This document shows, in pieces, positions 52,916 through 58,172 of a stretch of 64,000 nucleotides of DNA. The notes below the pieces were generated by a model. The model was not told the DNA's origin, made no database searches, and saw nothing but the letters and a program-made list of their open reading frames with translations. Every line of letters starts with the position of its first letter. Position 1 is the first letter of the stretch. This stretch comes from Nocardioides kribbensis (GTDB taxonomy: Bacteria; Actinomycetota; Actinomycetes; Propionibacteriales; Nocardioidaceae): positions 310,001 to 374,000 of the forward strand of contig NZ_JADCLL010000005.1 of the NCBI RefSeq assembly GCF_015070375.1, read 5' to 3'. The position numbers and the translations under genes are program-made.

Positions 52916-52973
52916 CTAGGTTGCCTCCTGTGCCGTGACCCCGACCACGGCGCCACGAGATCCCGGAGGACAG

Positions 52974-54269
52974 ATGAAGCGTAGATCCACCACGATCCGC
53001 CTCGCCGCCGTTGCGGCTGCCAGCGCGATGGTGCTCGCAGGCTGCGGCAGCGACTCGGGCGACGAGGAGCCCAGCTCCACCAGCTCCGACAGCGGGTCCT
53101 CGGCCCCGACCGCGGAGGGCGACGGCACCCTGGTGTTCGGCACGCTGCTCCCGCAGACCGGCAGCCTCGCCTTCCTCGGCCCGCCGGAGTTCGCCGGCGT
53201 CGACCTGGCCGTCAACGACATCAACGAGGCCGGCGGCGTCCTCGGCGCCGACGTCGAGAGCGTCCGCGGCGACTCGGGCGACACCGACTCCGGCATCGCC
53301 CCGGCCGAGACCGACAAGCTCCTCGACGGGGGCGCCGACGTCATCGTCGGTGCCGCGTCCTCGGGCGTCTCGCTCACCGTGATCGACAAGATCATGTCCT
53401 CGGGCGCGGTCATGTTCTCCCCGGCCAACACCTCCACCGCCTTCGACGAGGGCGACTACGCGGAGCCGGACAACTACTTCCGCACCGCCCCCTCCGACAT
53501 CCTCCAGGGTGCGGTCATGGCCAACCTGCTGCTGCAGGACGGCCGCCAGAACGTCGCGATCCTCGCCCGCCAGGACGCCTACGGCGAGACCCTGGCCGAG
53601 CAGATCGCCACCAACCTGGAGAACGCCGGCAGCCAGGTCGCCGCCACCGTGTTCTACGGCGAGAAGGCCCAGTCCTACGACTCGCAGGTGGAGGAGATCG
53701 CGGGCTCCGGCGCCGACGCCGTCGTGCTGGTCGCCTTCGAGGAGACCACCTCGATCATCCCGCAGCTCATCCAGGCCGGCGCCGGTCCGCAGGACCTGCC
53801 GACCTACTTCGTCGACGGCAACACCGCCAACTACGACAAGTCGGCCACCGCTCCGCTGCCCGACGGCACCCTCGAGGGCACCAAGGGCACGATCCCGGGC
53901 GCCGAGACCGCGGCCGACTTCAAGGACCGCCTGGCCACGGTCGACGACAACCTGAAGGACTACGCCTACGCCGCGGAGTCCTACGACGCCACCATCGTCT
54001 CCGCCCTGGCCGCGATCGCGGCCGACAGCGACGCCGGTGACGCCATCGCCGAGCAGATCCCCGACGTGACCCGCGAGGGCACGAAGTGCACCACCTTCGA
54101 GGAGTGCGCCGGCCTGCTGGCCGACGGCGAGGACATCGACTACGACGGTGTCTCCGGCCCCATCGAGCTGAGCGACCTGGGCAGCCCGACCTCGGCGTCG
54201 ATCGGCATCTACGAGTACGACGCGCAGAACAAGATCTCGCCGGTGGACTACATCAGCGGCGACATCTGA
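52974..54269 (+). CDS. livK: Branched-chain amino acid-type ABC transporter substrate-binding lipoprotein
   Basis: A 431-aa periplasmic-binding-fold protein. It has an N-terminal lipoprotein signal with lipobox LAGC (Cys24), a Ser/Asp-rich linker, then type I binding domains (VFGTLLPQTGSLAFLGPPEF, AVNDINEAGGVLG, VGAASSGVSLTVIDK, AILARQDAYGETLA). It delivers Leu/Ile/Val, or another amide or amino acid, to the LivHM permease. It is separated from livHMGF by the rhodopsin region. The ATG has GGAGGA upstream; the leader is about 45 nt. A 16-bp hairpin ends transcription. Confidence 0.92.
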   Translation: MKRRSTTIRLAAVAAASAMVLAGCGSDSGDEEPSSTSSDSGSSAPTAEGDGTLVFGTLLPQTGSLAFLGPPEFAGVDLAVNDINEAGGVLGADVESVRGDSGDTDSGIAPAETDKLLDGGADVIVGAASSGVSLTVIDKIMSSGAVMFSPANTSTAFDEGDYAEPDNYFRTAPSDILQGAVMANLLLQDGRQNVAILARQDAYGETLAEQIATNLENAGSQVAATVFYGEKAQSYDSQVEEIAGSGADAVVLVAFEETTSIIPQLIQAGAGPQDLPTYFVDGNTANYDKSATAPLPDGTLEGTKGTIPGAETAADFKDRLATVDDNLKDYAYAAESYDATIVSALAAIAADSDAGDAIAEQIPDVTREGTKCTTFEECAGLLADGEDIDYDGVSGPIELSDLGSPTSASIGIYEYDAQNKISPVDYISGDI

Positions 54270-54307
54270 GCCGACCGCGGCACCGCGCCACCAGCACCCG
54301 CTTCATC

Positions 54308-54342
54308 CGCAGGGCCCCGGAGCACCGCTCCGGGGCCCTGCG
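54308..54342. terminator. Bidirectional terminator between livK and the rhodopsin gene
   Basis: Perfect 16-bp stem CGCAGGGCCCCGGAGC with a 3-nt loop, serving both convergent genes. Confidence 0.88.
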
Positions 54343-54400
54343 CCGTCCCGCCCGGACGGGAGCGGGAGGGACCGGGCGACGCGCGCACCGGTCCCCCCGC

Positions 54401-55252
54401 TCAGGCCACCGTGGTGGTGGACGCCCCGCGGTCCCGCGTCGCGGCGGGCCGCTCGTGCGCCGTGCCCTCCTCCGCGGCCTCGAAGGCCGGGTCGTCGGCG
54501 AAGGACTTCAGGCGCGCGATGCGGTAGATGAGCAGGCCGTAGAGCGCCTTGGCCAGGATGTCGGCGATGGAGTAGCCGGCCTGCTTGCCGACCCAGGCGT
54601 CGGAGCCGTCGAGGCCGAGCAGGGGCAGCAGGTAGGCGATCGGGTAGACCCCCCACGAGGCGAAGAGCAGGATCCGCAGCCGAGAGATGGTCTGGCGCAC
54701 CGCCGGCGGCTGGCGGTCCAGCGACCGGGTCAGCTCCACGAAGAGCACGTAGAGGATGTAGAGGAAGGGCAGGGTCGACAGCAGGCCGAACACGTGGCGC
54801 AGGGCGTCGCTGTCGCTGATCTCTCCCGGGTAGCCCAGGACGATCATCAGCGCCGAGGCCGGCACGAGCCGCCACAGCAGCGACGCCTGGAGCTTGCGGG
54901 CCAGGGCGAGCACGACGACGAGCTCCACGAGCAGGAGCGGCACCGTGAGCAGCCAGTCGACGTAGCGGTAGCCCTCGTTGAACGACGCACCGACGGCCTG
55001 GGTGTAGGTGCCCTCGCCCCCGACCGCGTCGGTGACGAAGGCCTCCTTGAAGGAGCTGAAGATGCGGAAGTAGTGGTAGGCGGCGATGCCGCACACCACC
55101 GCGGAGACCAGGAGCGCCTGCCGGTAGCGCGGCAGCACGCGGGGCTGGGCGGCGACGAGGAACAGCGCGGTGAACAGCTGGGCCGCGATGACCAGCGACA
55201 GCAGGTTGTAGACCGTGTCGTACTGGCCCTGGGTGAGTTGATCGGGAATCAC
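54401..55252 (-). CDS. Light-driven proton pump rhodopsin, xanthorhodopsin-like with antenna-site glycine
   Basis: A 283-aa seven-helix microbial rhodopsin. The retinal Schiff-base Lys235 is in IADILAKALYG, with counter-ions Asp99 and Asp231. Helix C reads RYVDWLLTVPLLLVE, giving the proton-pump triad Asp99/Thr103/Glu110. His60 matches the proteorhodopsin Asp-His pair, and Leu107 at the spectral-tuning site predicts green absorption. RHVFGLLSTLPFLYILYVLF aligns with helix E of bacteriorhodopsin, putting Gly156 at Trp138, the gap that admits a carotenoid antenna in xanthorhodopsin. The tail is acidic. The GTG has GGAGG (55261-55265) 8 nt upstream. Confidence 0.95.
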   Translation of the reverse strand: MIPDQLTQGQYDTVYNLLSLVIAAQLFTALFLVAAQPRVLPRYRQALLVSAVVCGIAAYHYFRIFSSFKEAFVTDAVGGEGTYTQAVGASFNEGYRYVDWLLTVPLLLVELVVVLALARKLQASLLWRLVPASALMIVLGYPGEISDSDALRHVFGLLSTLPFLYILYVLFVELTRSLDRQPPAVRQTISRLRILLFASWGVYPIAYLLPLLGLDGSDAWVGKQAGYSIADILAKALYGLLIYRIARLKSFADDPAFEAAEEGTAHERPAATRDRGASTTTVA

Positions 55253-55300
55253 TGGAACGACCTCCGTTGACGTGTGGCCGAGGAGGGCGACGGCGCCCTC

Positions 55301-55325
55301 AGGTCAGCGCAAGTGGCGCTGACCT
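55301..55325. promoter_or_regulatory. Inverted repeat in the rhodopsin leader/promoter
   Basis: AGGTCAGCGC and GCGCTGACCT are perfect 10-bp inverse complements 5 nt apart, 49 bp upstream of the rhodopsin start. It could be an operator or an mRNA leader hairpin. Confidence 0.65.
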
Positions 55326-55386
55326 GCGCCGATGCGGGCCGTGGTGGGCCGCTGACGCAGCCTCAGTGTGGACCTCTACACGAACT

Positions 55387-55414
55387 TCAACAAGATATTT
55401 CAATCTTTTGTTGA
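55387..55414. promoter_or_regulatory. AT-rich inverted repeat, divergent rhodopsin/blh region
   Basis: TCAACAA (55387-55393) and TTGTTGA (55408-55414) are perfect inverse complements with start points 21 bp apart, two DNA turns. It sits in a strikingly AT-rich patch in otherwise GC-rich DNA and is placed to control both divergent genes. It is a good candidate site for a light- or redox-responsive regulator. Confidence 0.6.
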
Positions 55415-55455
55415 GATTTTGCCGTCGTGGGGTCCCCGAGGCCGTCGCCGAGGTC

Positions 55456-55461
55456 GATACT
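55456..55461 (+). promoter_or_regulatory. Leaderless -10 box of blh
   Basis: GATACT ends 6 nt before the GTG at 55468. Confidence 0.5.
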
Positions 55462-55467
55462 CGCGGT

Positions 55468-56487
55468 GTGACCGTCCTCGAGCCCCGACTCGCCCCCGCC
55501 GGCGGGCCGGCGCGCGTCGACGTGCTCCGCACCGCGTCCCGCTGGTCGCGCCGACTCGCGGTCGTGGCCGTCGGCGGGGCCGTCGCGTTGGCGGCGGCAC
55601 CGGTCCCTTCCGGGGTCTCGGGCCCCCTCGTGCTCGCCGTCGCGGGCGCCGGGCTGCTCCTCGGCCTGCCCCACGGTGCCGTCGACCACCTCGTGGCCGC
55701 GCGGCTCGCCCGCCGGCCGTGGCCCGTGCTCGCCCTCGCGTACGCCGCGGTCGCCGCGGTGAGCTGGGTCCTGCTCGCCACCGCGGGGCCGGTGGCCCTG
55801 GTCGCGGTGCTGCTGCTCAGCGTGGTGCACTTCGGCCTCGGCGAGCTCGAGGTCGTCAGGGAGGTCTCCGGGTGGCGGCCCGGCCCCGTCGTGTCGGTCG
55901 CGGTCGCTCTCGCGGGAGCCGGCGCCCTGCTGCTGCCGCTGGCCCGCGCCGGGCCGCTCCTGGTCGACGTCGGCACCGCGGTCTCCCCCGGGCTCGGGCC
56001 GCTCCTGGGCGAGCCCGTCGCGCGGGCCGCGCTCGCCGCGACCTGGGTCGCGGCCGCAGCGGTGGCGACGACGGCCGCGCTGCGGGCGGGCCAGCGTCAG
56101 GTCGCCGCCGACGTGCTGGTGCTCGGCCTCCTCGGGGCGGTCGTGCCGCCGCTCGCCGCATTCGCCCTGTGGTTCGGCGGCTGGCACGGTCTGCGCCACT
56201 GCGCCCGCCTGCTGCTCGACGACCAGCGCTGCGCCTCCTGGGTCGCCGCGGGTGACCCCGCCCGAGCGGTGCGCGTCCTGGCCGGCCGCGCCGCGTGGCC
56301 CACCCTCGCGGCCACGGCCGTGCTCGCCGCCCTCCTCGCGGGGTCCGTGCGCGCCGCCGACCCGAGCCGCGCGCTCGCCACGACGCTGCTGCTCCTGCTG
56401 GCCCTGACAGTGCCGCACATGCTGGTCGTGCTGTGGAGCGACCACCGCGCCCGGCACCCCGGCCGACTCAGCCGGTCTGCCAGGTGA
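55468..56487 (+). CDS. blh: Beta-carotene 15,15'-dioxygenase, Brp/Blh family
   Basis: A 339-aa integral membrane iron oxygenase that splits beta-carotene into two retinals, the rhodopsin chromophore. The conserved histidines are all present: GLPHGAVDHL (His69, His74), VVHFGLGE (His121), GGWHGLRH (His240, His244) and VPHMLVV (His317). The GTG at 55468 is preferred to a longer upstream frame because of the -10 box and because the extension is not conserved. It is divergent from the rhodopsin gene. No carotenoid synthesis genes are in the window, so beta-carotene must come from elsewhere in the genome. Its last 20 bp overlap the next gene. Confidence 0.92.
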   Translation: MTVLEPRLAPAGGPARVDVLRTASRWSRRLAVVAVGGAVALAAAPVPSGVSGPLVLAVAGAGLLLGLPHGAVDHLVAARLARRPWPVLALAYAAVAAVSWVLLATAGPVALVAVLLLSVVHFGLGELEVVREVSGWRPGPVVSVAVALAGAGALLLPLARAGPLLVDVGTAVSPGLGPLLGEPVARAALAATWVAAAAVATTAALRAGQRQVAADVLVLGLLGAVVPPLAAFALWFGGWHGLRHCARLLLDDQRCASWVAAGDPARAVRVLAGRAAWPTLAATAVLAALLAGSVRAADPSRALATTLLLLLALTVPHMLVVLWSDHRARHPGRLSRSAR

Positions 56488-57253
56488 AGCCCAGCTCGGA
56501 GGGCTCCGGCGGTCGTGTGCCGTCGGTGCGGGCGAGCCAGTAGAGGCAGCCCGCGTCGCCCCAGGCGGAGTCCGCACCGCCGTCGACCTGCAGCAGCGGG
56601 CGCCACCGCAGCGCCTCGCGGCGGTGCTCCTCGTCCCACGTCGCCGCGCCCAGCCGGGCCTCGGCCGCCTCCCACTCCACCGCTCCCTGCACCGGACGGG
56701 CCCAGCCTCCGAGCTGGTGACCGACCGCGTCCTCACCGACCGCGTCGTCGAGCGGCTCCCCCAGACGCTCCTCCATGGCGTCGGGGAGCTCGACCCCGGC
56801 GATCTCGAGCACCGGGTGCTCGCTGTCAGGCCAGGTGAGGACCTGGACGCCGGCGAGCGCGGCGTGTGCCCCCAGAGCCGGCCCGACCCCCTCCAGGTGG
56901 AGCAGTCGCCACCCCGCCGCGGTGCCGGGATCGGCGGCGTCGACGATCGCACCGGTGCCGTCGGGGTCGTCGTAGCAGAACGCGTGCAGCCGTCCGGTGC
57001 TCGCCAGCCGCAGGCCGGCGTCGAGGCCGGCGGCGGCCACCGCGGCGAGGTCCACCTCGGCGACGAGGCGCAGCGGACCCTCACCCGGCCACCGCGGGCG
57101 GTCGGCGCCCGGTCGGAGGTCGGGCGACCCACCGAGCCGCGCCACCGCCGGCTCCCCCGGCCCGGCGGGTCTCAGCAGCACCGCCGGGCGGAGCAGCCCG
57201 AGCCAGGCCCTCGCGCCCGCCTCGTCGAGGTGTTCCCGGGCGAGTGCGGTCAT
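56468..57253 (-). CDS. DUF1963 domain protein (YwqG-like)
   Basis: A 261-aa protein of the DUF1963 family. RLVAEVDLAAVAAAGLDAG and GRLHAFCYDDPDG form the conserved first half, then HQLGGWARPVQGAVEW and PLLQVDGGADSAWGDAGCLY with FTW near the end. Function is unknown in the family; this copy is Ala/Gly-rich and somewhat shortened. The ATG at 57253 is chosen, though an ATG three codons upstream (57262) is possible. It is convergent with blh, overlapping by 20 bp. Confidence 0.8.
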   Translation of the reverse strand: MTALAREHLDEAGARAWLGLLRPAVLLRPAGPGEPAVARLGGSPDLRPGADRPRWPGEGPLRLVAEVDLAAVAAAGLDAGLRLASTGRLHAFCYDDPDGTGAIVDAADPGTAAGWRLLHLEGVGPALGAHAALAGVQVLTWPDSEHPVLEIAGVELPDAMEERLGEPLDDAVGEDAVGHQLGGWARPVQGAVEWEAAEARLGAATWDEEHRREALRWRPLLQVDGGADSAWGDAGCLYWLARTDGTRPPEPSELGFTWQTG

Positions 57254-57325
57254 GTCCCCCATCGTGGAGAGGGCAGCCAAGGAGGACCCGGCCCCCGGTC
57301 GACGACACCCGGCAGCGACACGGGT

Positions 57326-57361: not shown

Positions 57362-57386
57362 TTCCCGCAGCCGAGGTGGGGCCGGC

Positions 57387-58172
57387 TCAGGAGGCCTGCT
57401 TGCCCAGCGTGCCGAGGTAGAGCTCGATGACCTTCGGGTCGTCGGCCAGCGAGCGGCCCGTGCCGGTGTAGGCGCTGCGTCCCTGGTCGAGGACGTAGCC
57501 GCGGTCGCAGATCTGCAGGCAGCGACGGGCGTTCTGCTCGACCATGACGACCGAGACCCCGGCCTGGTTGATCTTGCGGGTCTGCACGAAGACCTCGTCC
57601 TGCATCACCGGCGACAGACCCGCCGACGGCTCGTCGAGCAGCAGGACCGACGGGTCCATCATGAGAGCGCGGCCCATCGCCACCATCTGACGCTCGCCGC
57701 CCGACAGCGAGCCCGCGCGCTGCTTGCGCCGGGTGCCGAGGGTCGGGAAGAGGTCGGTGACGAAGTCGAAGCGGTCCTGGAACGTCTTGGGAGCCTGGTA
57801 GCAGCCCATCTCGAGGTTCTCCTCGATGGTGAGGCTCGGGAAGACGTTGTTGGTCTGCGGCACGAAGCCGATCCCCTGCGCCACCAGTTGGTCGGCCCGC
57901 TTGTTGGTGATCGCCTCGCCCTTGAGCGTGACCTGGCCGGTGTGGATCTTGACCAGGCCGAAGAGCGCCTTGAGCAGCGTCGACTTCCCGGCGCCGTTGG
58001 GTCCGATGATGCCGACCAGCTCACCGGGCTGGCAGTAGAAGTCGGCGCCGTTGAGGATGTTGACACCCGGGAGGTAGCCCGCGATCAGGTTGTCGGCCCG
58101 CAGGACGGCGCCCTCGGCGCCGGCCTCGTGGGCGCGGCGCTCGGGGCTGTCGGGCTCGGTGGTGCCGCTCAT
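57387..58172 (-). CDS. livF: Branched-chain amino acid-type ABC transporter ATPase LivF
   Basis: A 261-aa ABC ATPase: Walker A GPNGAGKST, Q-loop GFVPQTNNVFP, signature SLSGGERQMVAMGRALM, Walker B LLLDEPSAGLSP and H-loop-region VVMVEQNARRCL (Glu-Gln in place of His, as usual in LivF). Last gene of livH-livM-livG-livF. Its ATG overlaps the livG stop (ATGA). A strong terminator follows. Confidence 0.94.
   Translation of the reverse strand: MSGTTEPDSPERRAHEAGAEGAVLRADNLIAGYLPGVNILNGADFYCQPGELVGIIGPNGAGKSTLLKALFGLVKIHTGQVTLKGEAITNKRADQLVAQGIGFVPQTNNVFPSLTIEENLEMGCYQAPKTFQDRFDFVTDLFPTLGTRRKQRAGSLSGGERQMVAMGRALMMDPSVLLLDEPSAGLSPVMQDEVFVQTRKINQAGVSVVMVEQNARRCLQICDRGYVLDQGRSAYTGTGRSLADDPKVIELYLGTLGKQAS

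Follow-up and report, generated by a model that had tools for sequence, protein, structure and literature searches.

An actinorhodopsin and a linked Blh-type oxygenase, probably acquired by transfer, between livK and livF in Nocardioides kribbensis

The stretch of Nocardioides kribbensis DNA analysed here (64,000 nucleotides, hereafter the window) carries, between the livK and livF genes, what is very probably a horizontally acquired actinorhodopsin phototrophy cassette that brings together a light-driven pump and its retinal supply. We infer transfer from the patchy occurrence of the genes, an empty site in related genomes and the placement of the opsin in trees. In the scheme that we favour, a segment with the opsin and blh genes would have arrived by horizontal transfer and lodged between livK and livF, the host would make beta-carotene with crt genes of its own on a different contig (C14), and Blh would cleave this carotene to retinal, which would bind Lys235 of the opsin. 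Light would then drive a proton outward, from the Schiff base to Asp99 with Glu110 serving as proton donor, and the proton gradient may, judging from the family, support the cell in the light. The opening left by Gly156 at the retinal ring would be a family inheritance through which the ring of a host carotenoid could enter. On such a scheme, rhodopsin phototrophy would seem to ask little of a carotenoid-making actinobacterium: an opsin and one cleavage enzyme, inserted together.

The rhodopsin and blh genes

The features of the locus are collected in Table 1. The rhodopsin matches PF01036 in a Pfam profile scan (E = 1.1e-41) and is the sole match to this family in the 4.12-Mb genome, with none in 14 control genomes. 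Its translation has His60, Asp99, Thr103, Leu107, Glu110, Gly156 and Lys235, and the pump residues (Asp99, Thr103, Glu110, Lys235, His60) and green-tuning Leu that an earlier, sequence-only reading of the locus had listed are all present, with exact numbering. The family match, the retinal lysine (Lys235), the aspartate acceptor (Asp99), Thr103 and the carboxylic donor (Glu110) together form the sequence pattern of an outward proton pump, here with the green-tuning Leu, and the protein is accordingly named here as a putative light-driven outward proton transporter.

Table 1 Features of the rhodopsin locus (positions in the window).
Feature	Position	Strand	Details
LivK-type ABC transporter binding protein, left flank	52935..54269	(+)	PF13458 1.6e-32; congener orthologues
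Inserted segment	54350..57379		~3.0 kb by narrowest bounds, between livK and livF
Rhodopsin (actinorhodopsin by sequence)	54401..55252	(-)	283 aa; start GTG 55252, GGAGG a few bases 5'; AlphaFold2, PDB matches
Shared rhodopsin-blh intergenic region	55253..55467		GC 0.63 vs 0.744 for the window
Blh, beta-carotene 15,15'-dioxygenase family	55468..56487	(+)	339 aa; PF15461, TIGR03753, conserved histidines
DUF1963 protein	56468..57280	(-)	PF09234 9.8e-17; convergent with blh, inside inserted segment
LivF-type ABC ATPase, right flank	57387..58160 (start assumed)	(-)	81-91% identity to four empty-site congeners

The claim that a divergent blh gene links retinal supply to the opsin was borne out: the two genes are divergent, with starts 215 bp apart, and the Blh protein matches PF15461 (E = 2.2e-31) and TIGR03753 (E = 2e-35; 122.7 bits, cut-off 95.25). 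The enzyme would be expected to produce retinal. Its start was taken, as a judgement, at the GTG at 55468 (339 aa), the mechanical start of the open reading frame being 55267 (406 aa). Blh had also been credited with all its histidine ligands, which stood as far as conservation goes, since in an alignment of the window protein with 25 others (26 in total) His69, His121, His240 and His317 occur in 26, His244 in 25 and His74 in 22, and the iron ligands would be among these histidines. Among the rhodopsin loci of the nearest relatives (the best 80 of at least 550 confirmed from genome contigs, with near-duplicates among the 80), Blh is encoded at 25, of which 11 have the divergent arrangement, 13 have blh downstream on the same strand and 1 has another arrangement; it is absent from the locus DNA of the other 55, 22 of these loci being no longer than 12.5 kb.

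The intergenic region shared by the two genes is GC-rich and contains an imperfect AT-rich dyad (TCAACAAGATATT / AATCTTTTGTTGA, 55387-55414), a possible site for a regulator of blh or of the rhodopsin gene. The hexamer GATACT lies at 55456-55461, six bases ahead of where blh is assumed to begin, and was found by eye 6 or 7 bases before an ATG in L017, L030 and L015 as well; it would fit the -10 box of a leaderless transcript. A regulon shared with the crt genes was considered and is not supported, as an intergenic motif picked out by eye did no better than chance within the 18-kb stretch of the crt genes (2 matches against 1.46 expected, at up to two mismatches). Within the window the same motif, at the same tolerance, had 12 matches against 4.84 expected, a number reached in 1 of 100 shuffles, and one of the 12 is the original site itself, with two mismatches.

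Insertion site, family and distribution in the genus

The inserted segment contains the rhodopsin gene, blh and the DUF1963 gene, which shares 20 bp with the end of blh. We know of no link between DUF1963 and phototrophy, and the DUF1963 protein had no tblastn match at 1e-6 in seven congener livK loci; a comparison with PHROGs gave zero matches for the rhodopsin, Blh or DUF1963 protein. The LivF-type gene is followed by putative genes of the LivG, LivM and LivH types, livK being named by analogy. Homology to the flanks of four congeners ends at 54272-54349 and resumes at 57380-57403. These congeners (G054, G036, G029 and G007), which have the livK genes closest to that of the window strain (70-79% identity), carry the empty site, with livF after livK and the last aligned residues 121 to 458 bp apart, compared with a gap of 3.1 kb in the window. 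Three others (G011, G051 and G001) have a thioesterase gene, and not livF, after livK and are therefore uninformative on this site. Base composition gives no clear sign of transfer: GC at third codon positions is 0.975 for the rhodopsin gene and 0.95 for blh against 0.946-0.962 in the flanks, and total GC is 0.80 for blh and 0.775 for the DUF1963 gene against 0.67-0.70 in the liv genes and a window mean of 0.744.

By sequence, the window rhodopsin belongs to the actinorhodopsins, a kind that is sister to xanthorhodopsin (XR) and Gloeobacter rhodopsin (GR). The closest solved chain in a PDB sequence search was 9hfk (E = 3.2e-82), which the fold search names as RlActR, the actinorhodopsin of Rhodoluna lacicola; we found no paper naming 9HFK in the open-licence literature. 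Identity over the multiple alignment is 59% to 9hfk (60% in the fold comparison), 57% to GR, 54% to psXR, 49% to Kin4B8 and 48% to XR. An AlphaFold2 model (mean pLDDT 87.7), whose input alignment included 37 of the best 80 of at least 550 relatives, was compared with solved structures using VIA-align 2; the top match was psXR (9wfa; Z 35.1, rmsd 1.0), and Kin4B8, 9hfk, XR and GR had Z from 33.2 to 31.8 (GR, 31.8) and rmsd from 1.5 to 2.1. At the level of the model, the rhodopsin fold is thus confirmed, and the comparison tells nothing about pigment. A proline in the middle of helix D separates actinorhodopsins from XR, according to the text seen of PMC8113403, which cites earlier work. The corresponding residue is Pro131 in the window rhodopsin and a proline in 9hfk and in 78 of the 80 nearest relatives (the best 80 of at least 550), against Val in GR and psXR, Phe in XR and Leu in Kin4B8.

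Two trees, both midpoint-rooted and with long branches flagged by the tool, place the window rhodopsin within an actinobacterial group, near proteins of Pseudonocardiales and Mycobacterium. This group stands apart from GR, psXR, XR and Kin4B8 on branches with support of 100/99 in the first tree and 100/100 in the second, which is the first minus L075 (a long branch) and 16 near-duplicates, plus the rhodopsin of the other carrier described below. The placement of 9hfk inside the group is unsure (86/66 in the first tree, unresolved in the second). The rows nearest to the window rhodopsin by path are L017 and L022 in both trees, with a weakly supported join (87/72 for the window rhodopsin and L017 in the second), and its sister in the first tree is L075 (97/67), which has Phe at the His60 position. 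The sequence-only reading had likened the protein to XR and GR, with which it shares the glycine; it is an actinorhodopsin that stands apart from both.

Within a genus sample of 59 genomes that includes the window strain (53 of them with completeness of 90% or more and contamination of 5% or less), two have a rhodopsin over the cut-off and the same two have Blh over the cut-off, whereas a lycopene-cyclase domain occurs in 22. If relatedness is ignored, the chance that two randomly drawn pairs of genomes are the same is 1 in 1711. The restriction of rhodopsin and Blh to the same two of 59 genomes is new here, as is the cassette between livK and livF. The other carrier, G042, has an actinorhodopsin of another clade, 60% identical to that of the window, which sits with Kineococcus and Humibacillus in a branch apart (97/95), a long one. 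Two separate gains of rhodopsin in the genus appear to be the simplest reading, and each of these two members of the genus thus appears to have gained phototrophy on its own, through an opsin of a different clade. The blh gene of G042 lies 87 kb from its rhodopsin gene, beside a second lycopene-cyclase pair and a polyprenyl synthase (L112, L162, L163), and another crt cluster is found ~14 kb from that blh. A third genome, G058, matches PF01036 below the cut-off (21 bits) at G058:C1:2902-3396 (L113), the sequence being perhaps a distant rhodopsin relative.

Host carotenoids and the fenestration glycine

A carotenoid pathway, on which the sequence-only reading of the locus depended, is present in the genome, where a cluster on contig C14 contains idi, crtI (455.7 bits), crtB and two lycopene-cyclase-domain genes. 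Four short N-terminal matches (best 28 bits) were all that a search for a PF05834-type lycopene cyclase returned, and the paired cyclase was found by a CrtYcd-type domain search instead. The paired genes are predicted to have beta-cyclase activity, and beta-carotene, the substrate of Blh, is the likely product of the cluster. Three UbiA-family proteins were found in the genome, namely heme O synthase, MenA and a third, distant one closest to decaprenyl-phosphate phosphoribosyltransferase, so that there is no clear C50 elongase among them; a C50 carotenoid is a less likely product. CrtB, a Rieske domain and DUF5914 share one uninterrupted 618-aa frame (L095 9724-11580, on C14), which may be a phytoene synthase fused to an oxygenase-like part. 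The cluster also holds an FAD oxidoreductase nearest HpnE (141 bits, below the cut-off of 283) and a methyltransferase beside the cyclase genes; together with the Rieske-DUF5914/CrtB frame, these presumably recall aromatic isorenieratene-type clusters. Isorenieratene and CrtU in actinobacteria are mentioned in PMC2889829, the consulted part of which does not deal with the C14 cluster.

The same reading had proposed a light-harvesting pump able to use a carotenoid of the strain's own, hydroxylated or keto, and the enzymes that would make such pigments were not recognised. Matches to PF04116, which we take to be the family of CrtZ, number zero in the genome and occur in 2 of 14 control genomes. 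No CrtW was recognised among five FA_desaturase proteins, of which four have no NCBIfam match at 1e-8 and one is fused to rubredoxin (a library that may or may not include a CrtW model). A single distant CrtO-like protein stays at 211 bits, where the cut-off is 1000. With the usual xanthophyll genes unrecognised, the strain is a fair test of the glycine as a sign of an antenna.

The placement of Gly156 at the Trp138 position is sound, as the residue aligns with XR Gly156, GR Gly178 and Kin4B8 Gly153 in an alignment to these solved chains (and not to bacteriorhodopsin itself), which rules out chance as the origin of the call. Among the nearest relatives (the best 80 of at least 550) the position holds Gly in 77 and Phe in 3, a count that describes the actinorhodopsin clade near the window protein and not all rhodopsins, and the glycine therefore tells little about the window strain. 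It is the rule inside this clade and not so farther out, where 24% of 150 GR homologues have Trp and 2% have Phe (PMC9151804, in the part seen). The three relatives with Phe (L028, L031 and L033), two from Nesterenkonia and one from Ornithinimicrobium, combine G156F with T160M, so that both pocket positions change together; judging from these residues, their antenna opening is probably closed naturally, and they would be a ready control for antenna work.

Work on related pumps, as given in the parts of the papers available to us, indicates that the glycine permits carotenoid binding without proving it. ActR-13023, with Gly145 at this position, pumps protons and binds its host's native carotenoid, and it shows no canthaxanthin binding and a pumping rate lowered by salinixanthin (PMC8113403). 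Salinixanthin binds Kin4B8 with no energy transfer to retinal, and pocket and pigment alone do not predict such transfer (PMC13093654). The GR G178W variant loses carotenoid binding and pumps better than the wild type (PMC9151804).

That the window protein is a retinal-only pump, with an inherited glycine and a pocket that is empty or lipid-filled in this host, is a serious possibility that we would still place below an even chance. It agrees with the lack of any recognised pathway to those xanthophylls that are known to bind and with the naturally filled position in the three relatives, and the fenestration would be dispensable given that GR G178W pumps better without carotenoid and that Trp or Phe occurs naturally in part of the 150 GR homologues (PMC9151804, in part); against it, glycine in 77 of the best 80 of at least 550 relatives suggests selection for the opening in the clade.

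A dual-chromophore pump, in which a hydroxylated or keto host carotenoid in the Gly156 fenestration would pass energy to retinal, seems unlikely, even though Gly156, Thr160, Tyr207, Phe163, Pro204 and Ile205 match carotenoid-site positions of GR or Kin4B8 (by alignment, with positions from the parts seen of PMC13093654 and PMC9151804), a related actinorhodopsin binds its native carotenoid (PMC8113403, in part) and the genome encodes the distant CrtO-like protein. That protein is far below its cut-off, PF04116 proteins are absent and no CrtW was recognised. The polar ring-site residues of Kin4B8 (Ser208, Tyr209), which hold hydroxylated xanthophylls in that protein (PMC13093654, in part), are absent from the window rhodopsin, which has Leu211 and Leu212; their absence bears on hydroxylated pigments only, because GR and XR are also without them. 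XR Met211 and Asn191 are likewise replaced by Leu211 and Arg191, and GR Thr179 by Leu157, while a glycine common to 77 of the best 80 of at least 550 relatives is weak evidence for this strain. Of the light-harvesting pump proposed earlier, the pump sequence, the retinal supply and the glycine thus stand, and the antenna half is weaker than claimed, given how widespread the glycine is in the clade and that no enzymes for hydroxylated or keto pigments were recognised.

An antenna carotenoid that is neither hydroxylated nor keto, but aromatic or plain beta-carotene, is improbable; the hydrophobic pocket rim (Leu157, Leu211, Leu212) counts toward it, as do the HpnE-like oxidoreductase, the Rieske-DUF5914 part and the methyltransferase of the crt cluster, and in the portion of the open-licence literature seen none describes an isorenieratene antenna on a rhodopsin. 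If true, such an antenna would form a new class. A light sensor in place of a pump is scarcely credible, given Asp99, Thr103 and Glu110 alongside the retinal lysine, a nearest solved relative (RlActR) that is a characterised pump (PMC11790970, in part), no transducer among the six neighbouring proteins scanned and nothing found in its favour.

Comparison with known systems

The rhodopsins on the other side of the tree share parts of the pocket with the window protein. Kin4B8 (7ytb; 8i2z with zeaxanthin) has Gly153, Thr157 and Tyr204 at the positions of Gly156, Thr160 and Tyr207, whereas its Ser208 and Tyr209 correspond to Leu211 and Leu212 and its Asn188 to an Arg. XR of Salinibacter (3ddl) has its glycine at the identical number, 156, and the same Asp/Thr/Glu/Lys set, but differs at Met211 (Leu211) and Asn191 (Arg191). 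The fenestration glycine is also common to GR (6nwd) and psXR (9wfa), and GR Thr182, Phe185 and Pro226 equal Thr160, Phe163 and Pro204; both proteins, however, have Val in place of the helix-D proline and lie across the tree from the window rhodopsin, and GR Thr179 and Met233 are replaced by Leu157 and Leu211.

Nearer in kind are RlActR (9hfk) and ActR-13023 of Candidatus Aquiluna, which have, like the window rhodopsin, the Asp/Thr/Glu/Lys set, the green-tuning Leu, the fenestration glycine and the helix-D proline, and the host genome of ActR-13023 also carries blh (PMC8113403, in part). Unlike in those systems, Blh of the window is the immediate divergent neighbour of the rhodopsin, in a 4.1-Mb genome, and 57 of the 59 sampled genomes of the genus have no rhodopsin over the cut-off.
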